Part shown: piece after piece, positions 15,194 to 35,826 of the stretch
How positions within the stretch are numbered: position 1 is the stretch's first letter
Layout of the letters: each line of letters opens with the position of its first letter
IMG/VR virus record: IMGVR_UViG_3300027985_000843
Location: 1-64,000 of that record
Source: a virus
Strand: one strand, 5' to 3'
DNA: 64,000 nucleotides
The notes under the pieces: model-generated
What the model saw: the letters and a program-made list of their open reading frames with translations, nothing else
What the model was told of the DNA's origin: nothing
Databases searched by the model: none
Program-made: the position numbers and the translations under genes

Positions 15194-15694
15194 TCAATCT
15201 TCCATGTCTATGTCGAGGAATGGTATTCGGCGAGCCCCGGGAGAAGCAGCAGGAGCAACGGGCTTCGCTCCGAGCTTCTGCCGGCCCGGCCGCAACGTCG
15301 CCCAAGCCTCCTCCAGGGTGCCACTCTCGTATTCGTAGAATGTGGGGAATTCCTTGAGGGCCTGCTCAGCTCGGCACCGTAGGCACACGACCCCTCCCGG
15401 GGCGCAATCACACCCGATCCGATCAGCTATCGCAGACAGCAGCATGTGTAGGTCCTGAAAGGTCTCCTCACGGCTCACGCGGACTTCAGTTCGGTCCCCC
15501 GCTCGAAGCTCCTCCCCCACCACGATCTTCCGCCCTGTTGGGTACAGTTCGTGATGGCATCGGGGACAGTCTTCGAATCCCACATCGTCGTCTCGAACCC
15601 ATACCCGACCGCAGCCCGGGCAGTGCACCACCTCGGCCGGTAGTGTCTTGGTGGGAGACTTGGAGCGGCGAGCAACCACTTTCATGTCAGGCAT
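15194..15694 (-). CDS. double zinc-ribbon protein with acidic C-terminal tip
   Basis: 166 aa from ATG 15694 (15685 possible). Ribbon 1: CPGCGRVW...CPRCHHELY; second Cys group CDCAPGGVVCLRC. Ends ARRIPFLDIDMED after an Ala/Pro linker, an acidic-hydrophobic tip in the spirit of the tags seen in its neighbours. Confidence 0.7.
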   Translation of the reverse strand: MPDMKVVARRSKSPTKTLPAEVVHCPGCGRVWVRDDDVGFEDCPRCHHELYPTGRKIVVGEELRAGDRTEVRVSREETFQDLHMLLSAIADRIGCDCAPGGVVCLRCRAEQALKEFPTFYEYESGTLEEAWATLRPGRQKLGAKPVAPAASPGARRIPFLDIDMED

Positions 15695-16082
15695 CTTCAA
15701 TGTCTACACCACCGAGCCGGCTCCAGAAGGAAGAAACTTTGGCCTTGTGCGCCTCTTCCAGCTGCTGCATCCACTCAGGCAGGTTAATCACCCCGAAAGA
15801 ACACAGGCTGCTATCCCGACTCCGAACGATTCCGAGTTGGATGCTGCCCACATCGTTTGGCGCCCACATGACCAGGACGTGCTGGCGTGGGTTGGAACGG
15901 GCGGCCGCCCGCACCCTCTCGCGGGCAATCGCGGGAGGGTCCCCCGACCCGAGCCACCCACCCCGCCGCCCTGTGTAGGATGGCAGGATCGTGCACCACT
16001 CGTCGCCCCGAGCACTCAGTCGCTCAGTGCCCGCAGGCAAGTCGTCGACGGTCCCCTCGTAGAACGACAGGCTCAGAGGCAT
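15687..16082 (-). CDS. hypothetical protein with C-terminal RL tag
   Basis: 131 aa. Beta-rich body. Ends SSFWSRLGGVDIEDA, one of the shared C-terminal tags (aromatic, x, RL, then Asp-Ile and acids). Overlaps its neighbours on both sides by 8-10 nt, so it is part of the leftward operon. Confidence 0.7.
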   Translation of the reverse strand: MPLSLSFYEGTVDDLPAGTERLSARGDEWCTILPSYTGRRGGWLGSGDPPAIARERVRAAARSNPRQHVLVMWAPNDVGSIQLGIVRSRDSSLCSFGVINLPEWMQQLEEAHKAKVSSFWSRLGGVDIEDA

Positions 16083-16549
16083 GGCAGCCTCTCAGGCAGG
16101 CTTCGCTGAATTCGATGGCGAATATCAGGGGTCGTGTGCATCAGCCAGGGAATTCGCTCGGGGATGTCCTTCCACGAAGGGAACTCCACGAGAGGTGAGG
16201 TCGGTCCCCTATGCCGGTAGTGGGCCAGCCCCAAGTTGAAGGTCAGTTCGTTGTAGAACACTTCGATCTTGACCAGCGCGAGATACTCGCCGCCCGAACG
16301 GGGAAGCTGAAGGGCCCGCCGTCGGAGGAATGCTTTCGCTCCGCCCTCCTTGATGAGGGCGTAGCTCGCGTAGGGGAAGCTGAGGTGCCCCGCACCCTTC
16401 CTCAGGTGCGGAACCCACCCCTTGGGCGGGTCGTTCGGGAAATACTTGTCCGGACCCGGTCGCCAAAACATGAAGTTGGAGGAGTTGAGGAGGTCGGCCA
16501 AGGGCAAATCCCCCGCCGTTGTCAACCAATACCGTACTGGGATCATCAT
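16073..16549 (-). CDS. hypothetical protein, DarT-like appearance
   Basis: 158 aa from ATG 16549. RYWLTTAGDLPLADLL..SNFMFW.PGPD and later YALIKEGGAKAF and FYNELTFN give the look of a small ADP-ribosyltransferase-like or structural alpha/beta domain, but I cannot confirm any family. Function left open. Confidence 0.65.
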   Translation of the reverse strand: MMIPVRYWLTTAGDLPLADLLNSSNFMFWRPGPDKYFPNDPPKGWVPHLRKGAGHLSFPYASYALIKEGGAKAFLRRRALQLPRSGGEYLALVKIEVFYNELTFNLGLAHYRHRGPTSPLVEFPSWKDIPERIPWLMHTTPDIRHRIQRSLPERLPCL

Positions 16550-16965
16550 GGCACCACCCGATAGCGAGAGGACCCTCCACACACTCGATTGCGGACGCTA
16601 GGGCGCCCGCCAAGCCCCCTTTTGGATTCCAGGGGTGTCCGAGGTCGTAGAGGGCTGTCGTCGCCCCTGAGGGCCGCCTGAGCGTCGAGAGTGTCGAACA
16701 GACTTCGGAGCTTCAGAATCTCTCGGTCATGATCATGGGAGGGCCGTTCACCTTTGAGCCAGAAGATCTGTTCGGGAGGGCTGCATCGGGAACACGGGCA
16801 GGGACGGCCGCCCCTTCTCTCGTGCCACCTGCCGTCAACCGTCTGCCAGATCTCATCCCCCGTCACGTCGTGTCTGATGGTGACGATGACGGGGTCGGTG
16901 ATGGTGGCCGACGTCGTGCTGGTGATGACGGTCGACGTTGTGTTCGTGGCGCTGTAGGGAATCAT
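16546..16965 (-). CDS. hypothetical protein with CPCSRC motif
   Basis: 139 aa, overlapping the next start by 4 nt. Thr/Ser-rich N-terminus, then CPCSRCSPPEQIFWLKGE, helical stretch and basic C-terminus. No family recognised; a long plus-strand frame opposite is judged a shadow. Confidence 0.55.
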   Translation of the reverse strand: MIPYSATNTTSTVITSTTSATITDPVIVTIRHDVTGDEIWQTVDGRWHERRGGRPCPCSRCSPPEQIFWLKGERPSHDHDREILKLRSLFDTLDAQAALRGDDSPLRPRTPLESKRGLGGRPSVRNRVCGGSSRYRVVP

Positions 16966-16986
16966 TCGCGTTCTTCCAGAGCTAGG

Positions 16987-17343
16987 TCAGCCATACTTCC
17001 CCACAGGGTAGCAGCCGGTGACGTAGTGGTACGCGCGGAACAGCTTGCCGTTTTGCTCGTTGCTGTTGAGGTACTCTCGCAACCTCTCTTCGGTCACGCC
17101 GGCATACTCGGCCACGTCTTTGATGGCACGATCGGACATGGACACGAAGCTCAGCGAGACGAGTTTGAAGTCAGAGATTTCCTTAACCCTTTCCTTGACT
17201 TCTTCCGGCACAGGGGTGCCACCAGATTCGGAGCATCGAGGACAGAGGGCGTGCTGGATTTGGCAGCCCATGCTCAACCTGGCGAAAAAGGGGCTGTCCG
17301 GATCGAATGGGGCTAGGTCTAGAGGAAGATGCTTCTTGGGCAT
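16987..17343 (-). CDS. leaderless hypothetical protein with Cys-x-x-Cys
   Basis: 118 aa; ATG 17343 is 7 nt from a class I box, which rules out the longer frame from 17571. CPRCSES near residue 33; the C-terminal half (IKDVAEYAGVTEERLREYL) looks like a helix-turn-helix, so DNA binding is possible. Confidence 0.7.
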   Translation of the reverse strand: MPKKHLPLDLAPFDPDSPFFARLSMGCQIQHALCPRCSESGGTPVPEEVKERVKEISDFKLVSLSFVSMSDRAIKDVAEYAGVTEERLREYLNSNEQNGKLFRAYHYVTGCYPVGKYG

Positions 17344-17348
17344 GCCCC

Positions 17349-17645
17349 CTATTCTACACCGTATCGCTCGCGTTGTCGGGCTCGACGTTCCTGGAGGCTC
17401 GTTCCATGGTGGCGTCGGGTGCGACTGCACATCATGCAGGAGCACGGACAGCAGTGGGTCGATGCGAAGAGGCCAACCAGCTTCTTTGAGGGGTCGTACC
17501 ACTTCCCGAGGCCCACACCGTTGCGGGACTGGTTGGGGCCAGACCCGTTCGTGCTGGCAGCCGTGAGCCACACCTTGCCAAGGAATTGGTGGGCCTTGAC
17601 CTTCATGCGCCTGGCATGGTGTCGTCTGAACGCTCGGCTCCTCAT
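17349..17645 (-). CDS. basic Cys-rich small protein
   Basis: 98 aa (or 84 aa from ATG 17603). CCPCSCMMC in the second half suggests a metal site; termini are strongly Arg-rich. ATG 17645 follows the preceding stop by 1 nt (TGACATG). Nucleic-acid binding is plausible. Confidence 0.5.
   Translation of the reverse strand: MRSRAFRRHHARRMKVKAHQFLGKVWLTAASTNGSGPNQSRNGVGLGKWYDPSKKLVGLFASTHCCPCSCMMCSRTRRHHGTSLQERRARQRERYGVE
17351..17360 (-). promoter_or_regulatory. class I extended -10 promoter
   Basis: GGTGTAGAAT on the minus strand, 7 nt before ATG 17343; within the 3' end of the gene upstream. Confidence 0.75.
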
Positions 17646-17646
17646 G

Positions 17647-17808
17647 TCACGCCTGGAGTTCGGCCTTCTTGGGCTTCTCGAACTTCACGCCACGCTGACT
17701 GTCCTTGGCCTTGGCCGCACACGTCGAGCACAAGGGTAGGGTTCCGTTGGAGGTGGTTGCTGGGCGCTGCCCGCAACCGAAACACATCTGTCTGTCCTTC
17801 GTCGCCAT
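17647..17808 (-). CDS. 53-aa zinc-ribbon protein
   Basis: Short gene between two coupled genes. CFGCGQRP and then LCSTCAAK give a four-Cys ribbon followed by a Lys-rich tail. Begins 12 nt after the upstream stop. Confidence 0.65.
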   Translation of the reverse strand: MATKDRQMCFGCGQRPATTSNGTLPLCSTCAAKAKDSQRGVKFEKPKKAELQA

Positions 17809-17820
17809 ACCACAGAGTCC

Positions 17821-18393
17821 TCACAAGAAGATGGACGGATCTTCGCACAGTTGCTTGAGTTGTTCAACCTTCCACGGGTCCACGTCTTCCGCCGCCGGCA
17901 ATGGGGGCATCAGGAAGGGGCCCGCCGCCCGAGCGACAACGACCTCTTGAGCTGCGGCGCCTTGGTCCGATGTGGGAAACACCAGGGTATTCTTGAGCCC
18001 GGACACCTCCAGCATGTACTTGAGGTGCTCCTCGTCCTGTTCGCTGCCCGTCGGCCACCCCTCGTCGCGAGGCCACACACGGCCGTCCCACCCGTAGCGG
18101 TCCAGGGCGGCCACGATGTTGTTGAGCGTCTCCTCGAAGACGGGCAGCTCGACTTGCAAGGTACCCCCCGGCTTCGAATCGACGGGATTTTTGGGCAGGA
18201 GCAAGACGGACAGCATCACGAGAGGTGTTTCCGTGGCCTCTCTGACCCCAATCCACCCAAAGAGGGGGAGCGACAGGAATGTTCCCTTGACCGGCTCGGA
18301 CAGAACTTTGCCCACGGGCAGCATTCGGTGATCGACGCCGGTCGCACCCGTGGGACGGGCCATCTTGTTTTTTCGCTTGTCACTGATCTTCAT
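17821..18393 (-). CDS. leaderless hypothetical protein
   Basis: 190 aa; ATG 18393 lies 7 nt from a class I box. Basic N-terminus, then a beta-rich core (LVMLSVLLLP) and an acidic Pro-rich end. No known family; first gene of a leftward unit with the three genes after it. Confidence 0.7.
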   Translation of the reverse strand: MKISDKRKNKMARPTGATGVDHRMLPVGKVLSEPVKGTFLSLPLFGWIGVREATETPLVMLSVLLLPKNPVDSKPGGTLQVELPVFEETLNNIVAALDRYGWDGRVWPRDEGWPTGSEQDEEHLKYMLEVSGLKNTLVFPTSDQGAAAQEVVVARAAGPFLMPPLPAAEDVDPWKVEQLKQLCEDPSIFL

Positions 18394-18400
18394 GGGGCCT

Positions 18401-18410
18401 TCTATACACC
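18401..18410 (-). promoter_or_regulatory. class I extended -10 promoter
   Basis: GGTGTATAGA on the minus strand, 7 nt before ATG 18393. Confidence 0.75.
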
Positions 18411-18414
18411 GGTC

Positions 18415-19011
18415 TCAGTCGAAGTCGAAGTCGTCTTTACCCAACCGGTTCCAAGCTGTTTTAGGTTCGGGATTGACGCTCTGGTAAGTCGGGCGAGAAG
18501 CCAGACCGTTCAATGGAACCGAACCCCTGGGAGGTATCATTACCCCTCCGATGTACAAGGTCTGACCTGTCAGATTCTGAAGGTTCAGACCGTCGAAGCT
18601 TGTGGCCGCCGTGCCGTTGGCGATAGCCATCTGGGCTTCTGATATGTGCACCACGACTGGAGTGCTGTCGTTGGAGGCGGGAGTATCGCGATAGGGGTGG
18701 GATGAAGATACGTGAAAGACAGTGTCAGGCTCAGGGTCCCTGTCGTAGATGGGGCGAGCCCCATCAGGCAGCGAAGGGATGCCACCGGGTACGGGCCTGG
18801 GCCTGGGCCTGGGCTGGGTCTGACGACTATTTTCGACCTCGACAACGTGCCTCATGTGCTGTTGGCAGGCGAAACAGAAGTCGCCTCCAAACCTTCCGGT
18901 GGCATGAAGCGCCAGCGCTTCGGTGCCGTGTGTGCTCAGCCTGCTCCGGCATATGTCGCAGACGACATAGTACCTAACCGTGCCGTCTAGTGTCGCAGTC
19001 TCGATCGCCAT
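18415..19011 (-). CDS. zinc-finger protein with C-terminal RL tag
   Basis: 198 aa. CDICRSRL...CFACQQH near residues 18-50 is a zinc ribbon. A Pro/Arg linker (RPRPRPVPGG) follows, then a beta domain (TGQTLYIGGVMIPPRGSV) and the tag TAWNRLGKDDFDFD at the very end. ATG 19011 is 8 nt from a class I box shared with a divergent gene. Confidence 0.75.
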   Translation of the reverse strand: MAIETATLDGTVRYYVVCDICRSRLSTHGTEALALHATGRFGGDFCFACQQHMRHVVEVENSRQTQPRPRPRPVPGGIPSLPDGARPIYDRDPEPDTVFHVSSSHPYRDTPASNDSTPVVVHISEAQMAIANGTAATSFDGLNLQNLTGQTLYIGGVMIPPRGSVPLNGLASRPTYQSVNPEPKTAWNRLGKDDFDFD

Positions 19012-19019
19012 TTGATCTG

Positions 19020-19044
19020 AGCATACACCAAATCGGTGTAGAAT
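19020..19044. promoter_or_regulatory. divergent pair of class I promoters
   Basis: Back-to-back boxes: GGTGTATGCT on minus (19020-19029, for ATG 19011) and GGTGTAGAAT on plus (19035-19044, for ATG 19051, gap 6), with 5 bp between them. Confidence 0.8.
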
Positions 19045-19050
19045 CTAAGC

Positions 19051-19479
19051 ATGACGCAACACGTACAAGCGAGGCTCATCGATGATGCCCGGCGTGCTTT
19101 TCTTAATTCTCCTGCTCGTGGTGGACGACATCTACAACAACCAACGACACAAGTGAGCAACATGACCATCGAATGTGTCTTCAGCGGGCACAGCCTTCGA
19201 GAAGGCTTGTGCGACGGCAAGGCGACATCGTTCTTTCGCAGTGCCAAGGGGACCGTTTGGGCGCTGTGTACCTCCTGCGCTGATCAACACAAGCGGGTGA
19301 GCATCGGTCTGGCGAAGCAAGGCCGGTTGGCGATCAAGCCCCTCGCGGGAGCCACCTTCGACATACCCTTGGACGACCCCGAGACCCTCGCCATCTGGGA
19401 GAGTCAGGGACCGGAGACCGTCCAGGGTATCATCCAAGCTGTGGACTACGTGACCAAGCGGTCGGTGACCAAAGGCTAG
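19051..19479 (+). CDS. leaderless hypothetical protein with Cys motifs
   Basis: 142 aa from the leaderless ATG 19051; ATG at about 19162 (MTIECVFSGH) is an alternative start. The core has CVFSGH...LCDGK and LCTSCADQH, resembling a treble clef. The first 37 residues overlap a tiny membrane ORF in another frame. Confidence 0.65.
   Translation: MTQHVQARLIDDARRAFLNSPARGGRHLQQPTTQVSNMTIECVFSGHSLREGLCDGKATSFFRSAKGTVWALCTSCADQHKRVSIGLAKQGRLAIKPLAGATFDIPLDDPETLAIWESQGPETVQGIIQAVDYVTKRSVTKG
19082..19156 (+). CDS. possible 24-aa membrane peptide
   Basis: Overlaps the gene at 19051 in another frame. It encodes a single hydrophobic helix (GVLFLILLLVV) with charged tail, and its stop is 5 nt before the internal ATG of the larger gene. 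Such an overlap could be real or chance. Confidence 0.3.
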   Translation: MMPGVLFLILLLVVDDIYNNQRHK

Positions 19480-19790
19480 CGGTCAGCCGCTGCCGCCGCG
19501 ACCAACAGCATCGCCTTGTTCTCGGCGATCTCTCGATCTACCTTCTCAATCTCGTCCCGAAGTGCCCGACCCGTCTTGCCGATGGCAGCCAGCTCGTTGC
19601 CGGCCACTCCCCGGGCCCGCCCCCGAAGCGCCTTGTTGGCTTCCTTCTTCAGGGCGTACGCCTTGCGAAGCGCGTCTAGCTCGACCTTGGCCTGCTCCAG
19701 GACCTTGGCACTCACAGTAGTGCCCCAGCAATGAGGGCACAGCACCATCTTGATTCTGCCGGCCTCACAATGTCCGCAAGTGTTCCGCAT
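19476..19790 (-). CDS. zinc-ribbon plus coiled-coil protein
   Basis: 104 aa from a class II promoter. CGHCEAG...CPHCWG at the start (zinc ribbon) followed by ~75 residues of Ala/Leu/Glu-rich coiled coil. Probably an adaptor protein. Overlaps the convergent gene end by 4 nt. Confidence 0.75.
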   Translation of the reverse strand: MRNTCGHCEAGRIKMVLCPHCWGTTVSAKVLEQAKVELDALRKAYALKKEANKALRGRARGVAGNELAAIGKTGRALRDEIEKVDREIAENKAMLLVAAAAADR

Positions 19791-19794
19791 GTCC

Positions 19795-19824
19795 CTACTA
19801 CGATCGTTCTGGACGATAGTTCGG
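19795..19824 (-). promoter_or_regulatory. class II (ECF-like) promoter
   Basis: CCGAAC-N16-CGTAGTAG on the minus strand, gap 5 to ATG 19790. Confidence 0.8.
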
Positions 19825-19831
19825 AAAAATC

Positions 19832-19841
19832 GGTGTACCTA
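19832..19841 (+). promoter_or_regulatory. class I promoter
   Basis: GGTGTACCTA, 6 nt before ATG 19848. It lies 8 bp from the divergent class II promoter, so the two classes face away from each other here. Confidence 0.65.
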
Positions 19842-19847
19842 GCCAAC

Positions 19848-20108
19848 ATGAGGGAAGACATCATCATCGCCCAAGAACTTGAGGCCATGCGGAACGTGCA
19901 CGGAATGGACACTGCCCAGGCACTTCTCAAGGCCAATGGCTTCATCCTGCTTGCTTTCGGTCCCCGAAAGGTCACCTTCTACCCCGAGGACACGAAGATG
20001 ACCGACCGAGGCAGAATTCCACGAGAGGCCATCATCACCCAGACAGGCGTTCAATACCAAGAGTTCGCCAAAACTCTGAAAAAACCGGCCAAGAAGACGA
20101 GCAAATGA
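19848..20108 (+). CDS. leaderless hypothetical protein
   Basis: 86 aa from ATG 19848. Helical N-terminus (MREDIIIAQELEAMRNVHG) and Lys-rich C-terminus (AKTLKKPAKKTSK). The end overlaps the next start (ATGA). Unknown. Confidence 0.7.
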   Translation: MREDIIIAQELEAMRNVHGMDTAQALLKANGFILLAFGPRKVTFYPEDTKMTDRGRIPREAIITQTGVQYQEFAKTLKKPAKKTSK

Positions 20109-20614: not shown

Positions 20615-20619
20615 GACGA

Positions 20620-20644
20620 CCCCGTGGGGAAGGAACCCACGGGG
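20620..20644. terminator. hairpin between convergent genes
   Basis: Perfect 9-bp stem CCCCGTGGG / CCCACGGGG with a 7-nt loop, 6 nt after the plus-strand stop and facing the end of a minus-strand gene. No U-tract, so termination strength is uncertain; it could act in both directions. Confidence 0.65.
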
Positions 20645-20695
20645 CCATGGAGGAAACGGGACCTACCTAAACCATTCCACAGTTAGGGTGGATGG

Positions 20696-21154
20696 TCAAG
20701 GGGTCATATCAAAGGGGTCATTGTCCAAGAGACGGCCCCAAGCTGTGCGGTCCCCTTGGAAGTCGTACTTGGGGTTGTAGTCCGACAGGACGGCCGCGAA
20801 CTTCGTACTGTGTCCGTCTTCTGTCAGGTGAACGGTGACTTCCCACAACCCTCGGTCCTGTCGGTGGAAAAGGGACACGCCCCCTTCGCGCCTTGTGACC
20901 AACTTGACCCGCTGGTTATGGTCGAGGGCCACTGTGGATCCCACCTGGAAAGACGCGACCCTTCGATCGTCGAATGGTCGAAGCAAGTACAGTTGCCAGT
21001 CCCGGTGCATGTCCAGCTTCTCGACCAGCCCCTCTGTCTCGTCCGTCGGACGTACGAGGTCCTTCGAGTCTCGATGAAGGATGACCACCCCAAGGGCACA
21101 CCTCAGGGAGGTGCTGTCCAAGCGGACGTACGCGGGCGATAGCTCAATCAGCAT
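20696..21154 (-). CDS. hypothetical protein with C-terminal RL tag
   Basis: 152 aa; ATG 21154 overlaps the end of pyrE by 11 nt. Beta-rich body with no known motif. Ends TAWGRLLDNDPFDMTP, one of the clearest tags. Co-transcribed with pyrE. Confidence 0.7.
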   Translation of the reverse strand: MLIELSPAYVRLDSTSLRCALGVVILHRDSKDLVRPTDETEGLVEKLDMHRDWQLYLLRPFDDRRVASFQVGSTVALDHNQRVKLVTRREGGVSLFHRQDRGLWEVTVHLTEDGHSTKFAAVLSDYNPKYDFQGDRTAWGRLLDNDPFDMTP

Positions 21155-21767: not shown

Positions 21768-21779
21768 CTCCTTGCCTAT

Positions 21780-22681: not shown

Positions 22682-22978
22682 AAAGAGTTGCTTCTGGTAG
22701 GAGTGGAACACTTCGAGGACTTCCCGGGCCGATAGCGACTCGTCCACCTCGAAGCTCACCGACTTGGTTGCTACGACCACCGCGTAGCCCCTGCCGATCC
22801 ATACACCGGAAGTGACCTCCGGCCCAAGACGAACACGATGCAGCTCCTGAGCTGACAGGCCCATCCTGTACAGCTCAAGCTCGAACTTCACCCGGAACGC
22901 ATGGTGCTCCTGGATCCACTCGACGAGGGGTAGGCGATTCGAGATAGGTATTGTAGCCATTATCAATTCTTTGGTCAT
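22667..22978 (-). CDS. hypothetical 103-aa protein
   Basis: ATG 22978 overlaps the upstream stop (ATGA); ATG 22960 is an alternative. Alpha/beta protein ending in a helix. Unknown. Confidence 0.65.
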   Translation of the reverse strand: MTKELIMATIPISNRLPLVEWIQEHHAFRVKFELELYRMGLSAQELHRVRLGPEVTSGVWIGRGYAVVVATKSVSFEVDESLSAREVLEVFHSYQKQLFPNSS

Positions 22979-23472
22979 GGTTCATCTGGCTCCCCCTCAA
23001 TAATGTCCTCGGTTAAGCGTTCGAACGCCGTCGGGACGTGGTCGGGGATGTCGATGGGCTCCCACAGGATGTCCATCTGATCGGCGGCACACACGTACTG
23101 ACCTTCCAGGCCCGGCCGGCGAACGTTCTGGATGGTGATCTGCCCCCTGTGGGACTGCACCACCCGACCCTCTACATCTCGGTTGTCGTCTCCGACACCA
23201 ATGACCCATGAGCCTACGCTGAAAGGATCCTGTCCAGCCTCCAGAGTACCGTGAGATGCGAACCGCCTCAGGATCGGCAAAAGCTCCTGAGCATGGTCCC
23301 GCGTCAAGTGCATCCGGCCGTGCTGAATCTCCTCGCCCTCAAAGCTCACATCTACGCCAAGCCACACACAATCTTCCCCAGGAATGGAGGACTCCTGAAG
23401 ACTGCACAGGGCGCCATAGCGGTCTTGAAACTCAGCTCGCAGGAGCCCCTTCTTCGTCGGCTTGAACAACAT
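22975..23472 (-). CDS. hypothetical protein with C-terminal RL tag
   Basis: 165 aa. Beta-rich, with a segment DVEGRVVQSHRGQITIQNV like a small SH3/KOW barrel. Ends TAFERLTEDIIEGEPDEP, a member of the tag family. A 9-bp inverted repeat sits 7 nt before its ATG. Confidence 0.7.
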   Translation of the reverse strand: MLFKPTKKGLLRAEFQDRYGALCSLQESSIPGEDCVWLGVDVSFEGEEIQHGRMHLTRDHAQELLPILRRFASHGTLEAGQDPFSVGSWVIGVGDDNRDVEGRVVQSHRGQITIQNVRRPGLEGQYVCAADQMDILWEPIDIPDHVPTAFERLTEDIIEGEPDEP

Positions 23473-26181: not shown

Positions 26182-26211
26182 AACCTACACCGGAGACCCC
26201 CGGTGTATGAT
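26182..26211. promoter_or_regulatory. divergent pair of class I promoters
   Basis: GGTGTAGGTT on minus (26182-26191; gap 6 to ATG 26175) and GGTGTATGAT on plus (26202-26211; gap 7 to GTG 26219). Confidence 0.8.
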
Positions 26212-26218
26212 CGATTTC

Positions 26219-26701
26219 GTGCCTCTCACTTCCAATCAGATCACGGCCATCTATGCCCTAGATTGGCTGCTCGACGTGAGCGAAGACCGTCGCCGTTCGG
26301 GTCGCTCACTTGCGTGGGGCGCGGCCCTCATCAGACAAGCCCTGCGCCACCCAGGCAGACGTATCGCCTACTGTGACCACATCACCTCGATGGGCGGGGA
26401 GGAAGGGTACGAAAACCAACGCCGTATCATGTACCATGTCGTGCGCAACCTCATAGCCAGACACCCGGAACTCGACAGGCTCCAATGGGAGTTCCCCAAC
26501 ATGCGGTATTTTTGGCTGGCGTCTGATCAACTTGTGGACACCGACTGGATGCCGATGCCCCACGGCACAATGGACCCTGTCGTGTTGGGTCCCGAACCCG
26601 AGCCCCCACCTGAACCCGAGCTATCCGAACCGGCGTTCCCGGCCCCTACCTGCTGGGAGAGACTACTCGCGGAGAAAAAGGGCGACAACCCGTTCGATTG
26701 A
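26219..26701 (+). CDS. leaderless (GTG) hypothetical protein with C-terminal RL tag
   Basis: 160 aa if GTG 26219 is used; the upstream ATG 26207 lies within the -10 box and is unlikely. Helical body, then a Pro/Glu linker (EPEPPPEPELSEP) and the tag TCWERLLAEKKGDNPFD. No family recognised. Confidence 0.7.
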   Translation: MPLTSNQITAIYALDWLLDVSEDRRRSGRSLAWGAALIRQALRHPGRRIAYCDHITSMGGEEGYENQRRIMYHVVRNLIARHPELDRLQWEFPNMRYFWLASDQLVDTDWMPMPHGTMDPVVLGPEPEPPPEPELSEPAFPAPTCWERLLAEKKGDNPFD

Positions 26702-27549: not shown

Positions 27550-27912
27550 ATGGACAAGAAATGCGACGGCAAGGATTACTTGGTCCTCGGCAGTGTCGAT
27601 GAGACCGGCGGCCGCCGGTGCGTCATTCATCGGGCCGACCATCGGATAGAACAGGGCCGCGTCTTTCCGCTCCGAGATGGACAGCCCGTCCAACACGCCC
27701 TGGTGGTCAACGCGCCCGATGAGCACGGGCGGTTGGAAGTAGTGGCTGAGATCATCACCAATGGCCCTCCCAAGGTCGTATCCAACAAGTACCGCGAAGG
27801 CTGGGATCGAATCTTCGGCGCACCCGAGGAACCTTCCGACGACATCACCTCGATGATGATCAATCCCTGCTGCCATTACGGTCCCGACCTCGATCCGAAG
27901 GACATGAACTGA
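27550..27912 (+). CDS. hypothetical 120-aa protein
   Basis: Starts close to a class I box with an AGGAGG overlap. Beta-rich, with Cys near both ends. Its stop overlaps the next start. Unknown. Confidence 0.7.
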   Translation: MDKKCDGKDYLVLGSVDETGGRRCVIHRADHRIEQGRVFPLRDGQPVQHALVVNAPDEHGRLEVVAEIITNGPPKVVSNKYREGWDRIFGAPEEPSDDITSMMINPCCHYGPDLDPKDMN

Positions 27913-28442
27913 TGAAATGGCGAAAGGGCGACCTCGGACGGTTCGAATCCGAAGACAGGAACCTGCCTCGATTCGAAGTCATTCGAGCTGTGAAGGATGA
28001 GCACGTCGAGGTGTGGTACGGTGGGACCGATAAGACCACGCTCGTGCCGTGGAGCATCTTTTTCAAGGAGTGCACCAACCTGTGGAATTGGAAGCTCGAT
28101 GTGACCATCCCCCCATGGTTGGCCCCTGGTAGGGAGTTCACGGCCATGGGAAGCTTCAAGCAGGCGCTCATCAAATACAGTGTCGGACACCACATCGGGC
28201 ACAAGGTGTTCTACGGTACGTCGGAGCACGAGCACCTGTACGAGGCGGACAACGCCCGCCTCCTGGTTCGGAACATCCGGCACGACCATGCATCATGCCT
28301 CGTGCTCCCTGAGGGTCCTCTCGTGCTCGTGAGTATCGAAGATGCTGTTCGGTTTCGTCGAACCACTGCATGGTCCCGCCTGCTGGATACCAACGACATC
28401 TTCGAAGAGGAAGTTGACGATCTGGCGGAGATCTTTGGCTAG
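27912..28442 (+). CDS. hypothetical protein with near-C-terminal RL tag
   Basis: 176 aa. N-terminal Trp-Arg-Lys-Gly-Asp barrel-like start, then mixed alpha/beta. The tag TAWSRLLDTNDIFEE lies 27 residues before the end and is followed by a further acidic stretch (VDDLAEIFG). The only tag that is not at the extreme end. Confidence 0.7.
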   Translation: MKWRKGDLGRFESEDRNLPRFEVIRAVKDEHVEVWYGGTDKTTLVPWSIFFKECTNLWNWKLDVTIPPWLAPGREFTAMGSFKQALIKYSVGHHIGHKVFYGTSEHEHLYEADNARLLVRNIRHDHASCLVLPEGPLVLVSIEDAVRFRRTTAWSRLLDTNDIFEEEVDDLAEIFG

Positions 28443-28633
28443 GCGTCCTTCAGTCTCTGAGCCCACGTCATGGGCTTCTTGCTCTCCTCCAGCTCAGCTT
28501 TCAACGACTGGTTTTCTTCTCGCAGGGCGCGGTTCTCCGCTTCCAAGGCGCGAACCCTGGTACGCAGGGCTTCGATCTGAGGTTGGAGATCCCTGCCGTC
28601 TTGCGGCCACAGGTCTAGGTCAACACAGGTCAT
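28439..28633 (-). CDS. leaderless coiled-coil protein, short tag
   Basis: 64 aa from ATG 28633. Residues 15-50 form a heptad coiled coil (ALEAENRALREENQSLKAEL). Ends TWAQRLKDA, which looks like the first half of the C-terminal tag without the acidic end. Confidence 0.7.
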   Translation of the reverse strand: MTCVDLDLWPQDGRDLQPQIEALRTRVRALEAENRALREENQSLKAELEESKKPMTWAQRLKDA

Positions 28634-29790: not shown

Positions 29791-29800
29791 ACTATACACC
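29791..29800 (-). promoter_or_regulatory. class I promoter of the endolysin
   Basis: GGTGTATAGT on the minus strand, about 62 nt before ATG 29728; gives a leader of roughly 55 nt containing a ribosome site, unlike the leaderless genes. Confidence 0.6.
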
Positions 29801-29809
29801 ACGGGAACC

Positions 29810-30136
29810 ATGACAACAGACGACCACAAACCAGAAGCACCCCTGAGTAGTCCACCTGTGTCCCAGACGATTTTGAGGCTACGGCAGCAAATCGAAGAAG
29901 CTCGAACCCCAGAGGAGAAGATGGCGTTGATGCTGACCCTCGCGGCTCAGTTCGACCTTGAGCACAGCCTTCTCGACGACGGCTACAACGAGAACTACCA
30001 CAGCTACTTCGAAGAATACGAAGAAGCCCGCATGCACTTCCAGCATACGGCCCTTCGCCTCGCACGCCTGGCCCTCAGCGTGATCGATGACGAAGTGCCG
30101 AACACCTCGCCGCCTCCCCCCAAGAACGTCAACTAG
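29810..30136 (+). CDS. hypothetical helical protein
   Basis: 108 aa from ATG 29810. Acidic N-terminus, helical body (ILRLRQQIEEARTPEEKMAL) and Pro-rich end. Divergent from the endolysin. Unknown. Confidence 0.65.
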   Translation: MTTDDHKPEAPLSSPPVSQTILRLRQQIEEARTPEEKMALMLTLAAQFDLEHSLLDDGYNENYHSYFEEYEEARMHFQHTALRLARLALSVIDDEVPNTSPPPPKNVN

Positions 30137-31014
30137 AAGTCATCGAAATCTCGACCGAGACGAGAGAAAGCCGTCGGTGCCGGCCCTCTGGGGGGCTCTG
30201 GCGGGGCCGGGCGCCTCGCAGGGGGCTCTGGCCGTCTCGGAGTCGAAGCGGGCCGTGTAGGGGGCTCTACGGCTCGAATAGGCCGAACAGCAGCGACCCT
30301 GGTCCCAGTGGCGTGGAACCTTCCGTCCTCACCCCTTTGACTGACCACGGTACCCCCGCCCCCGAAGCTCCCGCCGTATCGGCGGCCGTAATTCGGAGAG
30401 TCGTCGATGTCGATGTCCGGCATCGGCAGTTGGAATGGGCTGCCGGCACCCAGGGCTTCTTGGGCCTGCAAAGCTTCCCGGTTCATGAACAGGGACGACA
30501 GATCGGGGCTGGGAACAGAAGCAAGGTCATCAGCAAAGTTCGCATCCCCTCCAAGTTCCCAATCATCGTCGGTCGAGGTCGAGGTCGAAACCCCCGCTTG
30601 CTGCAACCGGGCGGCCCGATTCGCTATCGCAATGGCACGGGCGTCATGCTGCTCTACAATGGCAGCCGTGACCCGTTGTGTCGCCTGCGACAGAGCGTTG
30701 GCAACACTCTCGATGTTCGGTGTAAAGTCAATGTTGATGTCATCGGCGGCGAACGTAGTGAACTCCACCTCGAAGGGGACCTGCGCTTGTGATGCCTCAA
30801 CCTCGGCCAAAGGTTCGTAGGTGGGCATCTTGGGCCTGCCAAAGGTGGACGCGAATTGGGAGGACTGGACAGCCCTCATTTCCCTCACTGCGCCCGCAGA
30901 CAAGAGCATCTCCGGAGTGAGATCAGGGAGGACAGCTTCTCTGGCAGCACTGCCGTTCCGCTGACGCTCTGCCTCGACAAGTTCTTGGAGTCGTTTTTCG
31001 AGTTCGGAAGCCAT
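30133..31014 (-). CDS. disordered Pro-rich protein with C-terminal RL tag
   Basis: 293 aa from ATG 31014. Helical N-terminus (ASELEKRLQELVEAERQR), Ala-rich middle, Gly-rich stretch, then a long Pro/Arg linker (RRPAPPEPPRGPAP) ending in the tag TAFSRLGRDFDDF. The layout of a globular part, long flexible tether and short tip is typical of a docking protein. Confidence 0.7.
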   Translation of the reverse strand: MASELEKRLQELVEAERQRNGSAAREAVLPDLTPEMLLSAGAVREMRAVQSSQFASTFGRPKMPTYEPLAEVEASQAQVPFEVEFTTFAADDINIDFTPNIESVANALSQATQRVTAAIVEQHDARAIAIANRAARLQQAGVSTSTSTDDDWELGGDANFADDLASVPSPDLSSLFMNREALQAQEALGAGSPFQLPMPDIDIDDSPNYGRRYGGSFGGGGTVVSQRGEDGRFHATGTRVAAVRPIRAVEPPTRPASTPRRPEPPARRPAPPEPPRGPAPTAFSRLGRDFDDF

Positions 31015-31049
31015 GGTCACACAGTAGAGATCTAATCAGAGGATTTTCG

Positions 31050-31493
31050 ATGGGTTACCTGATAGACGATCAGTCAGTACCTCCCGTGAGAGATCGGAAA
31101 TGGCGGATATGGTCCGCCCCGGTGTACCGGTTTCTGAGCAAACCCAGATCCTGGTCTGAACTCAAGCAGTGGTCACGACAGATGAAGGTCATGAGCATCC
31201 CACGGATGACTCAGTGCCTGGCTTGGCTGGACCACATGAAGGTGGCCTACACGACCGGCCACGAGGTGAGGGACATTCGGTGGGTGTCAGTCGTCACGGA
31301 CATGTTTGACAGTGTTCCGGACGTCCTCTCCCACGAAAAAGCCGAGGATGATGGTGAAGGCGCCGGTGGTGAGAGCGACGCCCAAGGGCCCCTTGATGAA
31401 GAGGTAGATGGTGGCGGAGAAGAAGAGGACGAGCAGGATGACGGTGATGATCTTGGCGACGACTTTCACGATCTGCTCTCCAGGAACCGTTGA
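31050..31493 (+). CDS. hypothetical protein with acidic tail, antisense overlap
   Basis: 147 aa. The first ~95 residues (RDRKWRIWSAPVYRFLSKPRS, SWSELKQWSRQMKVM) look like a small helical domain, perhaps winged-helix. The last ~50 are almost all acidic and Gly and lie opposite a membrane-protein gene; that tail may not be under selection. Confidence 0.5.
   Translation: MGYLIDDQSVPPVRDRKWRIWSAPVYRFLSKPRSWSELKQWSRQMKVMSIPRMTQCLAWLDHMKVAYTTGHEVRDIRWVSVVTDMFDSVPDVLSHEKAEDDGEGAGGESDAQGPLDEEVDGGGEEEDEQDDGDDLGDDFHDLLSRNR
31287..31469 (-). CDS. 60-aa two-helix membrane protein
   Basis: GTG start overlaps the upstream stop (GTGA) with GGAG 8 nt before. Two hydrophobic helices: ITVILLVLFFSATIYLFI and LTTGAFTIILGFF. 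It might be a holin-like or accessory envelope protein. Overlaps the gene at 31050 on the other strand. Confidence 0.6.
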   Translation of the reverse strand: MKVVAKIITVILLVLFFSATIYLFIKGPLGVALTTGAFTIILGFFVGEDVRNTVKHVRDD

Positions 31494-32014
31494 ACCACTC
31501 GGGCAGCCTTCGTTGTCAGCACGAACGGGAAGGACACCACGAGCTTGTCATCCCCTGAGTTGCCTCCCCACAGCACCAGCTCGTGGGCGCCCCACTCGAC
31601 AGTGGGAATGCTCCGGTCCGAGAAATCCTCACCGCTGTCATCGTAGGCCAACGTCACGTGCGGCTTGAACTCGGGGTGGCGCTGGCTGTATTCGACGCCC
31701 TCTTCGTCGAACACCTTGCGGATGCGTTCCCGCAGAGCATGCAGCTCATCGGATTCCACCCGGCAGATGATGGGCTTGTTGCCGTCACTGGGGAAGCTCG
31801 TAACCAACGAGGTACCCACGGTGAATGGCTTCGTCTGTGAGGTCACTCCGAACGCCACCCGAATAATCTCGGCCAACTCGTTGATGTCCAAGTCGTCGCC
31901 GAAGAAAAACAGGGTCACATGGAAGTGTGACGTGGGCTCTCTGTCACCCGGTACATCGATCCCGCCGAGCAGACGGGCCGTTTCGTGCGGCACAGCCAAA
32001 CCAAGAAATGCCAT
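31466..32014 (-). CDS. 2H phosphoesterase (LigT/2'-5' RNA ligase-like)
   Basis: 182 aa with both catalytic His-x-Thr motifs: FHVTLFFF (H32, T34) and KPHVTLAY (H120, T122). 2H enzymes hydrolyse cyclic phosphodiester bonds in RNA or cyclic nucleotides. In phages, members such as T4 Acb1 degrade the signal nucleotides of CBASS defence. Which substrate applies here is unknown. It is in an operon with an ABC ATPase and a zincin-like protein. Confidence 0.85.
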   Translation of the reverse strand: MAFLGLAVPHETARLLGGIDVPGDREPTSHFHVTLFFFGDDLDINELAEIIRVAFGVTSQTKPFTVGTSLVTSFPSDGNKPIICRVESDELHALRERIRKVFDEEGVEYSQRHPEFKPHVTLAYDDSGEDFSDRSIPTVEWGAHELVLWGGNSGDDKLVVSFPFVLTTKAARVVQRFLESRS

Positions 32015-32021
32015 CAGTTCC

Positions 32022-33278
32022 TCACTTCCACATGATCTCGGGCTGGTAGCTCAAGAGCATCGCCTGAAGGGCTCGCTCGTAGTTGCCAGCGATCCTGTGG
32101 TTCTCGTAGATCTTGCGCTTGATGCCCATGGCCGGACTCTTGGCGTAGGCCACCAGGTCCACGCCCTTCGAGGGGTCGTACTTGAAGACGAGCTGCAAGG
32201 ACGACAACACAGGCTTCTTGCCCTCTTGGACAGGAATGGCCTTCGGGAACTCGTAGCCGATCCAAGCTTCGGCATCCCACTCCCCGTCACGACCGGCTCG
32301 GGCCCGGAAGCTTTCGAGATGCACGGGGAAGTCCTTCACCTTGCGCTTGGTCAGGGTCTTGAGGATGTCCCTGAGCGTGGCCGGGTCGAGTCCGGTGCTC
32401 ACATCTCGGCCGCCTGCCCCCATCATTGTCTCGAACGTGCTCACGATGGCGGAGTCCCAGCTGCCCTCTTGGCCCATGTGCCCGATGGCGAACAGTTCTG
32501 CGAACACTCTTCGAGGATCCTGGGCCCGGTCGGAGGCGTACTTGGTCACCTGCCACTTGGGGTCACTGAAGTCAGCTCGGCAGCCATGCAGGACGTCGTA
32601 CCGTCGACCCAGCTCTCGCAGCACCTGGTAGGTGGCGGACCCGTACTTGTCCGGGGCCAGAAGGCTGATGCTGGCCTTGACGTAAATGGTGTCGTCTGAC
32701 TCTCGATAGATGGCCGTCAGAGGGGCCTCTTGTGGGCGCACTAGGGCAATCTTCAGGCTTCCTGACAGAGCCTTGGTCCTCCACCCCTGAAGGCTGTCGA
32801 GCAGCGTGTTGAGGCGGGCAGCGTACCGGTCCAGGGTGTACTGTGAGAACCCTGCCTCGTTGAGGTAGGTCCTCGTGCACACGTCTTCTTGGAGCTTCGG
32901 GCCGCCCACCCACAGCTGGTAGCCTCCAGAGGTGCCGGCCTTGCGTGCCAACCCCTGGGCTTCGAGCTTTGCCATGCCCTCGTGTTCGGCGTCGGTCTTC
33001 GTTGAAGCGACTCCGCCGGCCCGGAGAATCTGAAGTTGTTGATCCATTCCCGTACGTCTCCAATTGCCGCCGAACCCGTTGTATTGCTTGACTGCCCAAG
33101 CAGACGCAGGTGGCGACGGCCATATGTACTTGTCCGCCGGCCTGTGGATGGTCCTTCCACCAACGGTCAGTTCCTCGACATCCCCCCGCGCGACTTCCTT
33201 GACCCTCTCCCAAAGAGCAGGGTTCGTCGGCTCGTACTCATCCGTCAGATGAGGGTAGGACGGGGCGTTCTTGGTCAT
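32022..33278 (-). CDS. zincin-like protein with degenerate active site
   Basis: 418 aa. The N-terminal part (LWERVKEVARG.EELTVGGRTIHRP and SAWAVKQYNGFGGNWR) matches a phage protein type I recall without known function. The centre has TYQVLRELGRRYDVLHG near residue 220, then WQVTKYASDRAQDPRRVFAELFA: the layout of a metallopeptidase whose HELGHR helix has become RELGRR. The two His ligands are gone, so peptidase activity is unlikely. Confidence 0.7.
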   Translation of the reverse strand: MTKNAPSYPHLTDEYEPTNPALWERVKEVARGDVEELTVGGRTIHRPADKYIWPSPPASAWAVKQYNGFGGNWRRTGMDQQLQILRAGGVASTKTDAEHEGMAKLEAQGLARKAGTSGGYQLWVGGPKLQEDVCTRTYLNEAGFSQYTLDRYAARLNTLLDSLQGWRTKALSGSLKIALVRPQEAPLTAIYRESDDTIYVKASISLLAPDKYGSATYQVLRELGRRYDVLHGCRADFSDPKWQVTKYASDRAQDPRRVFAELFAIGHMGQEGSWDSAIVSTFETMMGAGGRDVSTGLDPATLRDILKTLTKRKVKDFPVHLESFRARAGRDGEWDAEAWIGYEFPKAIPVQEGKKPVLSSLQLVFKYDPSKGVDLVAYAKSPAMGIKRKIYENHRIAGNYERALQAMLLSYQPEIMWK

Positions 33279-33281
33279 GAC

Positions 33282-33485
33282 CTAGTCCTTCCCGCGATTC
33301 CTGGACTTGGTGAGGTCCAGGAACAACTTGGGGACACAGACCTTCTCCCCGGTCTTCTTGCGCACGACCACGCCTCCGTCGGGCAGCTCATGCGTGACCT
33401 CCAGAGGTTCTCCCCCGAGGGCTCCTGTACGCAACCACTTGTCGGCTTCAAGATCGCTTGTGCTCACACAGGAGCCGAAATTCAA
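33282..33485 (-). CDS. small hypothetical protein
   Basis: 67 aa, between the ABC ATPase and the zincin-like gene. A beta-hairpin (LEVTHELPDGGVVVRKKTGEK) suggests a small barrel. Unknown. Confidence 0.65.
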   Translation of the reverse strand: MNFGSCVSTSDLEADKWLRTGALGGEPLEVTHELPDGGVVVRKKTGEKVCVPKLFLDLTKSRNRGKD

Positions 33486-33490
33486 GAAGA

Positions 33491-34174
33491 TTAGCTCTTT
33501 AGAATGGCGTGAATTCGTCGGAAGCGGCTGCGAGAGACGTTCCGGAGCTTCGTAAGGTCCAAGGGCCGAACTGGTTGGTCAAGCCACTCCTGAACTGTGT
33601 TCGGAGCCTTCACCCTCCCGAGATGCAGGTAGTGCGGCTTGGCCGGGAGAAGCTCCCGCACGAGGGCCTTGTTGTGGGTCACCACGAAGATGCCCATCGT
33701 CTTCTTGGGCGGATCGAGAGCGAAGTCTCGAATGTACTGGCCCATCCCAGCTGCCCAGCTGTCGGACAGCCCAAGGTCGGGCTCATCCCAGAAAATGGCG
33801 TGCTTGTGCTCACGTCCCCGACACGTGCGAACCCCTGCTATCACCGTGACGGTGGAGTTCTCCCCCGTCGCCTGCCATTGCTCGTTGCCGTAGACCATGC
33901 TCCGCAGCGCGTTGTACCCGTCAACCCGGCCTTGCATGCTCGGGTCCATGCATTCGATCTTGCTGTTCCTGTATGCCTGGCCGACGATCCGACGAAAGAA
34001 AGACTTGCCCCCAGCGTTGTCACCAACCACGATCACGAGCTTGCCCTTGCCAGGGGTCCAGACAGCTGGAATGGCCGGGAGGCCGCCGTCCTCCGGGTTG
34101 AAGTATTCGAGACCGTCCAGCAGATCTTCTACGAGAGCCTGGGGGCTGGAACAATCGAATTTGATGTTCGACAT
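33491..34174 (-). CDS. ABC/SMC-type ATPase domain protein
   Basis: 227 aa. Walker A GDNAGGKS (51-58), signature-like LGLSDSWAAGM (134-144), Walker B AIFWDEPD (126-133) and H-loop VVTHNKA (H167). A single, minimal ATPase lobe without coiled coil or partner, more like RecF/OLD-family heads than transporters. Leaderless: ATG 34174 is 6 nt from its class I box. It could act on DNA; role unknown. Confidence 0.8.
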   Translation of the reverse strand: MSNIKFDCSSPQALVEDLLDGLEYFNPEDGGLPAIPAVWTPGKGKLVIVVGDNAGGKSFFRRIVGQAYRNSKIECMDPSMQGRVDGYNALRSMVYGNEQWQATGENSTVTVIAGVRTCRGREHKHAIFWDEPDLGLSDSWAAGMGQYIRDFALDPPKKTMGIFVVTHNKALVRELLPAKPHYLHLGRVKAPNTVQEWLDQPVRPLDLTKLRNVSRSRFRRIHAILKS

Positions 34175-34180
34175 GCTCTA

Positions 34181-34214
34181 GAACTACACCGGGGAGGCCG
34201 CTTCGGTGTAGAGT
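34181..34214. promoter_or_regulatory. divergent pair of class I promoters
   Basis: GGTGTAGTTC on minus (34181-34190; gap 6 to ATG 34174) and GGTGTAGAGT on plus (34205-34214; gap 6 to ATG 34221). Confidence 0.8.
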
Positions 34215-34220
34215 TTTCGC

Positions 34221-35021
34221 ATGACTCCGGAGACTGCTGCTCTAGCGACCCTTGCCGTCATCATAGGCCCTGCGCTGCTCCTGCCCGCCTATCGTATGAT
34301 CAAGCGTCGACAAAAGGCACGTCGGGCAGCTCAGAAGGTCGAACCCCCGAAAGAGGTTCCCAAGAAATCACCCGAGGTGTCGCTTGAGCCTATCGGGGGT
34401 ATCTACTACACCCGCCAGCAGATTTCTTTGGCCCACAGGGTCGTACCCTCGGCATGCATCGTCGGGATCGAAGGGCTGTCCCTTTATCTATCGGAGGGCC
34501 CTGGAACTATGGAAGTCACCCCCACAGACATCAATCTTCTCCGAACGGCCGTGTCGAACGGGTGGCTCACCAAGATCGACTCGGATTTGCCTCCACAACA
34601 AGTACCTGGAATTCGAGCCAGGCTGTCTGAAATAGGCGAAACCTTCCGACGTCGAATTGACGCCTTCCAGCGTCAATTCGATAGCGGATTGGATGCATTG
34701 CGTCGGGCTGAATCTCTGTCGGACGTGGAGCACATTGTCTACACTCCTGGAGAGGCACGCATCTACCGGGCAACCCGGGACTTCGCGCTTCGATCCGTGG
34801 AAGGCGCTACAGTGCACATTCAGAAGGGCGAGCTTCTCCGGTTCGACGGTATGACGGTCACCACTCAACACCATCAGCAAGACGCTCCGGGCCTTCGAGG
34901 GGCCGTACGCAATGGGTGGATCCGGCTTGAACCCGAAGCTGTGTCGATTCGTCAGCCGGCTCAGCCATCTCGAACAGCGACCCAGCGACTCCTCGATGAC
35001 GACGTGTGGGAGGATGCATGA
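34221..35021 (+). CDS. membrane-anchored protein with C-terminal RL tag
   Basis: 266 aa, leaderless. One N-terminal hydrophobic helix (ALATLAVIIGPALLLPAY) followed by Arg/Lys, so N-out/C-in anchoring is likely. Pro/Lys linker, two similar segments about DINLLRTAVSNGWLTKI and PGLRGAVRNGWIRLEP, and a helical middle. Ends TATQRLLDDDVWEDA. First gene of a four-gene operon ending in a peptidoglycan glycosyltransferase. Confidence 0.8.
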   Translation: MTPETAALATLAVIIGPALLLPAYRMIKRRQKARRAAQKVEPPKEVPKKSPEVSLEPIGGIYYTRQQISLAHRVVPSACIVGIEGLSLYLSEGPGTMEVTPTDINLLRTAVSNGWLTKIDSDLPPQQVPGIRARLSEIGETFRRRIDAFQRQFDSGLDALRRAESLSDVEHIVYTPGEARIYRATRDFALRSVEGATVHIQKGELLRFDGMTVTTQHHQQDAPGLRGAVRNGWIRLEPEAVSIRQPAQPSRTATQRLLDDDVWEDA

Positions 35022-35371
35022 GCGACCTGATTTTTGGCTTCTTGATCGCAGTCATGGGCTTCCTATTCCTCGCAGCCGTGGTCAGGTGCGTTCTGCTGAC
35101 CCGGCAAAACCTGCTACAAGCGCAGCAGATGGATAAGCTTCGGGATGAAAACCAGCGGCTTCAAGAGTCAGCTGAGCAGCTACGAGACTCAAACGATCGG
35201 CTGAGGAGTCGCATGTTCGATCTTCGCCGCCGAAGTCGTGATCTGGCAACCAAACCGTGTACAGGGGGCGACGCGATGAAGTATCCGTCCGTCGAGACGG
35301 TCCAGCTGAAGCCGAAGCCCATCAAAACAGCCACTGCCCGCCTCCTAGATGGTGATGTGTGGGCGAAATGA
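35018..35371 (+). CDS. membrane-anchored coiled-coil protein with C-terminal RL tag
   Basis: 117 aa; ATGA overlap with the gene before. N-terminal helix LIFGFLIAVMGFLFLAAVV, then a coiled coil of ~45 residues (LRDENQRLQESAEQLRDSND), a Pro/Lys linker and the tag TATARLLDGDVWAK. Same plan as its two neighbours, which suggests they form a membrane complex. Confidence 0.8.
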   Translation: MSDLIFGFLIAVMGFLFLAAVVRCVLLTRQNLLQAQQMDKLRDENQRLQESAEQLRDSNDRLRSRMFDLRRRSRDLATKPCTGGDAMKYPSVETVQLKPKPIKTATARLLDGDVWAK

Positions 35372-35826
35372 ACCCTGATATCCTCGTGGATGCCCTGGCT
35401 GTGTTCGTCCTTTTGGCGGCCTTTGCCGTAGTGAAGTGGTCTCGCAAGTGGCTCAATCAAATCACCAGCCTTAATAACCAAGTCGGCGGTCTTGAGAGCC
35501 AGATTAGGATCCTCAAGGAAACGGTCCGCAGCAGGGAACAAGATCTCAACATCCTCAAAGAGGTCTCTGAGCATCGATGCTCCGAGTTCGAAGCCCGGCG
35601 GGCCGATCAAGCAGTGGAAAACGATCGACTGCGAAGGTACATTGCGTCTTTGCAGCGAGAAATTCAATCATTAAAGCGAGTCGACCAACACCAGATGAAT
35701 GTGCGGCACGACGCAAACGTGCCTCGCGAACCCCAACCACCCTCCGAACCACCACCGTCAGTCTTTCAACGTCTCGAACGCGATGATATATGGGACGCTG
35801 GCCCATGGGACACCGATCCGTCATGA
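35368..35826 (+). CDS. membrane-anchored coiled-coil protein with C-terminal RL tag
   Basis: 152 aa; ATGA overlap. N-terminal helix (ALAVFVLLAAFAVV), long coiled coil to ~residue 105, Pro-rich linker (REPQPPSEPPP) and the tag SVFQRLERDDIWDAGPWD. Third member of the same plan. Its stop overlaps the next start (ATGA). Confidence 0.8.
   Translation: MNPDILVDALAVFVLLAAFAVVKWSRKWLNQITSLNNQVGGLESQIRILKETVRSREQDLNILKEVSEHRCSEFEARRADQAVENDRLRRYIASLQREIQSLKRVDQHQMNVRHDANVPREPQPPSEPPPSVFQRLERDDIWDAGPWDTDPS

Follow-up and report, generated by a model that had tools for sequence, protein, structure and literature searches.

A short, mostly C-terminal motif on unrelated proteins of a clade of huge tailed phages as a likely docking signal

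Tagged proteins in the window

The window analyzed here is the first 64 kb of IMGVR_UViG_3300027985_000843 (G000), a virus record of 371,739 bases in which genes for terminase, DNA polymerase, GroEL and ClpX were located, identifying it as a jumbo tailed phage. Ten genes of the window, on both strands, encode proteins that share a short C-terminal peptide, which we call the tag (Table 1). The tag is conserved in a clade of huge tailed phages, where it stands mostly at protein ends, is carried by unrelated bodies and drifts in concert within each lineage.

An earlier note on the window had described these ten tags, and we found all of them at the genes it named, each ending at an in-frame stop codon. 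The likely gene starts differ from those given for 20696-21154 (-) and 26207-26701 (+). The half-copy TWAQRLKDA of 28439 (-), which the note had listed as well, was matched by no profile and was excluded from the count.

Table 1. Tagged proteins and marker genes of G000; positions refer to the window unless given in kb of G000 (aa, amino acids; ORF, open reading frame; TM, transmembrane helix)
Feature	Position	Strand	Remarks
Tagged protein, 131 aa, ends SSFWSRLGGVDIEDA	15687..16082	-	tag ~15693-15740; window sequence and profile match
Tagged protein, 198 aa, ends PKTAWNRLGKDDFDFD	18415..19011	-	tag ~18418-18468; window sequence and profile match
Tagged protein, 152 aa from likely ATG, ends RTAWGRLLDNDPFDMTP	20696..21154	-	tag ~20708-20758
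Tagged protein, 165 aa, phrog_3849 domain (1-78) and linker, ends PTAFERLTEDIIEGEPDEP	22975..23472	-	tag ~22996-23043
Tagged protein, 164 aa, Pro-rich linker, ends PTCWERLLAEKKGDNPFD	26207..26701	+	tag ~26636-26686
Tagged protein, 176 aa, ends TTAWSRLLDTNDIFEEEVDDLAEIFG	27912..28442	+	tag ~28353-28403; window sequence and profile match
Coiled-coil ORF ending MTWAQRLKDA (half-copy)	28439..28633	-	not counted as member
Tagged protein, 293 aa, Pro-rich linker, ends PTAFSRLGRDFDDF	30133..31014	-	tag ~30136-30183
Tagged protein, 266 aa, N-terminal TM, ends RTATQRLLDDDVWEDA	34221..35021	+	tag ~34962-35012
Tagged protein, 117 aa, TM, coiled coil and linker, ends KTATARLLDGDVWAK	35018..35371	+	tag ~35315-35362
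Tagged protein, 152 aa, TM, coiled coil and Pro-rich linker, ends PSVFQRLERDDIWDAGPWDTDPS	35368..35826	+	tag ~35746-35796
Further tagged C-terminus RPKTAYGRLSSDDDFDFDMED	72.8 kb		held-out profile match, DNA read
Further tagged C-terminus KTDAWSRLLHDDPKLDDFEDMLNG	82.4 kb		held-out profile match, DNA read
Further tagged C-terminus SPTCWSRLLDDPGWNDSEDEE	246.4 kb		held-out profile match, DNA read
Further tagged C-terminus KSAMARLLDEDLFEPV	305.0 kb		held-out profile match, DNA read
ClpX with zinc finger	77.1-78.5 kb
DNA polymerase	87.3-90.3 kb
Terminase large subunit	210.6-212.6 kb
GroEL	L005:4321-6015; 244.3-246.0 kb	-

The tag across the whole genome

A profile of the ten peptides was run over all six frames of G000. 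It recovered the ten and gave four matches not seen before, all C-terminal. These lie at about 72.8, 82.4, 246.4 and 305.0 kb, so the tags extend well beyond the 20 kb that had been supposed. Genome-wide there are 14 tagged proteins with 14 unrelated bodies, as judged by BLAST between the bodies, and a second profile round over G000 added no member.

In a position-specific scoring matrix (PSSM) scan of ~190 kb of G000 (286,350 windows), the 14 tags scored 20.3-29.9 and the next best peptide 14.6. As this PSSM was built with the tags included, the held-out profile matches are the fair test, and chance is excluded because the ten-peptide profile found four of them, each C-terminal. Tag forms were later extended iteratively, and for this reason the tests without prior exposure, held-out or blind, are the strongest evidence. 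The records used are of unknown completeness and were read in part; tag counts are therefore lower bounds. The tag also held up against unrelated phage proteomes, which the earlier note had named as a touchstone: its profiles found nothing in phiKZ, T4, phage G, Salmonella phage S19cd or LR745208.

Spread and lineage forms in the clade

Nucleotide and single-protein searches of the phage collection and IMG/VR found no near relative of G000. Through its DNA polymerase, aligned with two homologues, we obtained 25 relatives in IMG/VR, on contigs of 5-513 kb. The first relative found (G001/L004) was without tag. The profile of the 14 G000 tags alone gave 19 matches in G004 (437 kb), 17 of them at most 35 residues from the stop. 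Broader profiles gave 32 matches in G004, 35 in G003 (512 kb), five each in G005 and G018, four in G015 and one to three in several further relatives; read in the DNA, most of these proved C-terminal. The C-terminal profile search proposed earlier thus yielded further tags both in the rest of the genome and in related phages.

A blind test agrees. When four-residue patterns were counted in G004 with no profile, TxxERL came first (15 C-terminal versus 0 internal) and WERL second (13 versus 0). About 40 G003 proteins end in TRFERIL-type tags (107 kb of the 512 kb examined).

The form of the tag differs between lineages: TAWxRLLDDD in G000, T[ACV]W[ED]R[LI]L in G004, (P)TRFERIL in G003, TRFDRI in G025, xRLMxDD in G005, G013 and G015, and TxLDR[LIV][LM]xDD in G018. 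G016, which at first appeared tagless, has an orthologue of the 72836 protein with the end QQSVYDQLMDDSLFRLK, and some dozen of its ORFs close with forms such as PTKWELLLEDDQ, PTQWEHLLADT, PTIWELLSDSSNL and SAWDHLTEDP. This pattern, chosen post hoc, counts 15 C-terminal versus 8 internal (p ~1e-5; reversed control, 6 versus 8). A loose pattern showed no enrichment in G018, whose set comes from profile matches and orthologues. The core across the clade is approximately [ST]-x-[WFYL]-[EDQ]-R-[LI]-[LM]-x-[DE], with R replaced in one lineage; the motif as first stated is real but too narrow. Tag forms follow the DNA-polymerase tree, and the tag changes in concert within each genome.

We considered whether the tag might be an artefact of base composition or of the recent duplication of one tag-bearing segment, since some adjacent tagged genes in G003 are paralogues. 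However, synonymous codons have fully diversified along the motif in G003 and G004, which indicates that the peptide, not the DNA, is conserved and that the tags are old. The bodies are unrelated, and the reversed motif has no C-terminal excess in either genome. An artefact is thus so improbable as to be negligible.

A tag DNA pattern run over IMG/VR was too narrow and gave no match. A match in Tunturi_5 was dismissed as out of frame with the annotated gene, and one in CcrColossus as lying 168 residues from the protein end. Pseudomonas phage HRDY3, a jumbo phage of unestablished clade membership, has a single C-terminal match, DVWERLMEKLNEEQT (L130, 295195-295227, +; E 0.007), which may be chance or wider spread.

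Bodies and orthologues of the tagged proteins

Among the tagged bodies compared there are 14 families in G000, 29 in G003 and 31 in G004. Four families are tagged in several genomes, each time in the form of the lineage: the 72836 family in G000, G004, G018 and G016, the 26207 family in G000, G004 (two copies) and G018, the 305013 family in G000, G004, G005 and G018, and the 30133 family in G000, G004 and, more weakly, G013. The orthologue bodies are only ~20-40% identical, yet all four families end in the tag. Diverged orthologues that are tagged, along with unrelated bodies, are what selection for a common reader predicts.

Well-conserved homologues lacking the tag had been named as a finding that would count against it. 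In the clade the orthologues keep the tag, and the tagless homologues stand outside. Homologues of the phrog_3849 domain at the N-terminus of 22975-23472 occur in Felixounavirus, Caulobacter phage CcrColossus and Pseudomonas phage HRDY3, and the three read outside the clade carry no tag. The tag is thus an added module.

Most tagged proteins had no family match in a Pfam scan or among PHROG matches. The individual exceptions comprise proteins with a helix-turn-helix or zinc ribbon, a radical SAM protein, a Tad2-like (anti-Thoeris) domain, and DUF3268, DUF6794 and DUF2793. The Tad2-like domain, which the Pfam scan of the tagged set had returned, seems to form the N-terminus of a G003 protein (L177:1103-1579, ~10.1 kb, -), an assignment made by eye. 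The DNA polymerase, GroEL and ClpX of G000 have C-termini without tag. The tag hence marks proteins that are accessory and evolve fast. The GroEL gene adjoins the tagged gene at 246.4 kb, lying downstream of it on the same strand. Scans for promoters and upstream motifs, as a guide to early or late timing, were uninformative.

Anatomy and predicted topology of the tag

The stretch behind the RL or RI measures 2-39 residues in 96 tagged proteins, and mostly 3-10. Pro and Lys are enriched ~2.5-fold in the 15 residues before the tag, bearing out the Pro-rich linkers described earlier, and Asp 4-fold in the residues after it. In a few proteins the motif is internal, away from the C-terminus. An 81-aa protein of G003 (L184:1302-1547, ~243.8 kb, -) carries the tandem tags RPTRFDRILDTDE and STRFDRILRDDED; with such a pair, one protein might span two sites of the receptor.

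An S/T-x-x-E pattern like that of a helix capping box, and a W..L-L spacing like that of an amphipathic helix, make it probable that the tag takes up a short helical form when bound. The Pro/Lys-rich linker before it is probably disordered. In a single-sequence model, 35018-35371 forms one long helix (TM and coiled coil) and then a low-confidence coil covering linker and tag; for 27912-28442, the confidence was too low for use. The predicted plan of linker and short helix would be that of the encapsulation peptides of microcompartments, in which a short helical segment on a disordered linker is carried by unrelated cargo (PMC12339742). The sequence of the tag is different, its carriers are phage proteins, and no microcompartment shell was found, none being sought in the whole record.

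Membrane-anchored tagged proteins number three in G000 and at least three in G004, and they also occur in G018 and G025. Positive charge follows the transmembrane helix in most of them, and the tag is therefore predicted to be cytosolic. Most tagged proteins look soluble. Directly after the three anchored genes of G000, and overlapping the last, lies a peptidoglycan transglycosylase gene (window 35805-37514, +) whose product has no tag.

A docking motif and its possible receptors

We consider it likely that the tag is a C-terminal docking motif of this clade, read by one receptor that is probably encoded by the phage. The docking or sorting signal with a common reader that the earlier note had suggested is well supported, short of saying which receptor: the tag alone is common to the unrelated bodies, it is kept on fast-diverging orthologues, and it drifts in concert. 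Because of this concerted drift within each lineage, the reader would most likely be phage-encoded.

In the arrangement that we propose, the tag would hang on the Pro/Lys-rich linker, with a short and variable acidic tail behind the core. The hydrophobic residues of the tag helix would occupy a groove of the receptor, and the acidic tail would lie near a basic rim. One receptor would bind 14 to ~40 accessory proteins per phage and gather them at one place in the infected cell, and the membrane-anchored members would tie part of the assembly to the membrane on its cytoplasmic side. Candidate receptors are an intracellular hub, which would accommodate both anchored and soluble members, the prohead scaffold, and the phage's own ClpX. 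Of the platforms first suggested, a membrane fits in part, since anchoring concerns some members, while the majority look soluble.

A clamp or polymerase as reader finds no support, because the DNA polymerase itself carries no tag. The tag resembles the PIP box of PCNA partners, clamp-binding motifs and the SSB tip in that one short motif on many partners would serve one hub. It differs from them in sequence, and the tagged proteins are not recognizable replication proteins. An SSB-like tip lies elsewhere in the window: a 165-aa protein (13605-14102, -) without Pfam or PHROG match ends SEDIDDIPF, resembling the SSB C-terminal tip.

Several points weigh against a single phage receptor. No receptor was identified, nearly all tagged proteins are without assignable function, and the G018 and G016 sets comprise few or post hoc matches. 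Isolated-chain models leave the tag disordered or low in confidence, so we infer its helix from the residue pattern. Lineage-specific forms could also arise if the reader were encoded by the host and varied from one host to another.

If the reader were a host protein, the motif would mimic a host short linear motif, and its lineage forms would follow different hosts. Bacterial genome contigs, searched for the phage family as a guide to the host, gave no match. A tag-profile search found no related peptide among solved structures. Very different forms occur within one clade, each concerted over tens of proteins, for which a co-evolving phage receptor would be the simpler account. We regard host docking as quite unlikely.

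The capsid targeting sequence (CTS) of T4 is N-terminal and is carried by a handful of proteins. By analogy, the tag might bind the prohead scaffold or inner capsid surface from a C-terminal position and load accessory and anti-defence proteins for injection. Like the CTS, it gives diverse phage proteins a common short terminal sequence, which would send them to one destination, and the T4 internal proteins are diverse defence proteins with only a short targeting sequence in common (PMC3012670). The tagged bodies are likewise diverse, small and fast-evolving, one of them with the Tad2-like domain. Unlike the N-terminal CTS, the tag lies at or near the C-termini of 14 to ~40 proteins, including membrane-anchored ones, and T4 itself has no tag match. 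Anchored proteins, found tagged in four genomes, are unlikely cargo. The alignments read show no conserved protease-like site upstream of the tag, which we also count against cargo, and no link to known head genes appeared. Matches to PHROG head families were short and partial; those to phrog_2522, 'major head protein', covered only 35-60 residues and were rejected as head-protein evidence. We hold capsid loading to be unlikely, though it deserves to be kept in mind.

The reader might also be the phage's own ClpX, with the tagged proteins as adaptors or substrates; the variable body would bind a target, which ClpX would pass to host ClpP or remodel. All 15 clade records tested encode a zinc-finger ClpX that keeps the GF loop for ClpP contact, and three outgroup records without ClpX are also without verified tags. 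A variable body, a flexible linker and a terminal docking motif make up the plan of ClpX adaptors. The XB peptide of SspB docks on the ClpX zinc domain regardless of position (PMC12373786), as internal tag copies would need. However, the association exists at the level of the clade only, so any clade-specific gene would fit equally. Phage G reportedly encodes ClpX (PMC7824862) yet has no tag, and the tag-poor G019 and G022 also encode it. The motif is unlike the XB peptide, and tens of tagged proteins stand against few adaptors. No ClpP was found in the 18 records searched. On balance this reading is unlikely as well, a shade more so than capsid loading. In G003 the ClpX gene (L195, 275.5-279.5 kb) has an in-frame intein-like insertion inside the ATP-binding loop, and the DNA polymerase has a large in-frame insertion.

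The terminal position of the tag and the presence of a phage ClpX would also suit a self-degron by which accessory proteins would be kept short-lived. This is very improbable. Behind the core, the residues vary in number (2-39) and are rich in Asp, and internal copies occur, whereas ssrA-type ClpX degrons must be at the very C-terminus (PMC12373786). Self-removal alone would hardly explain the long-term upkeep of the tag on 14-40 proteins.

A docking motif read by one phage receptor would resemble the phage-nucleus import of chimalliviruses in that functions encoded by the phage would sort many proteins within the infected cell. That import uses no conserved linear signal and recognizes its cargo via a surface (PMC11087766), while the tag is linear. 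phiKZ is untagged, and no match to a multisubunit RNA polymerase beta domain was found in G000, chimallin itself not being searched for. The literature, searched in a limited collection, held no description of such a tag, and no described family matched.

Other features of the record

A tRNA gene with anticodon TTA, confirmed as tRNA by Rfam, lies at 1355-1430 (+) of the window and would decode TAA, a stop codon. Among the predicted window genes this stop is the rarest (12 of 105), and it ends none of the 14 tagged genes of G000, so this tRNA is irrelevant to them. Beyond the window, a 1171-aa protein (L006:1150-4665, 65.2-68.7 kb, -) joins a NUDIX domain to a eukaryote-type topoisomerase I core.

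Implications

More broadly, the clade might practise addressing on the scale of the proteome, in which a single receptor of the phage reads the C-terminal address of its lineage on a large set of accessory proteins, membrane anchors among them. This would make an intracellular takeover platform or, if the receptor is ClpX, a set of interchangeable adaptors that remove host proteins. We offer this as a tentative possibility. An address that can be read from sequence groups dozens of uncharacterized phage proteins into one functional set, and one receptor, if found, would explain many unknown genes together. It gives a testable handle on the ways in which huge phages not of the nucleus-forming group organize infected cells, fill their virions or get rid of host proteins. 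The lineage-specific tags, presumably each with its own receptor, would constitute a natural set of orthogonal docking peptides.

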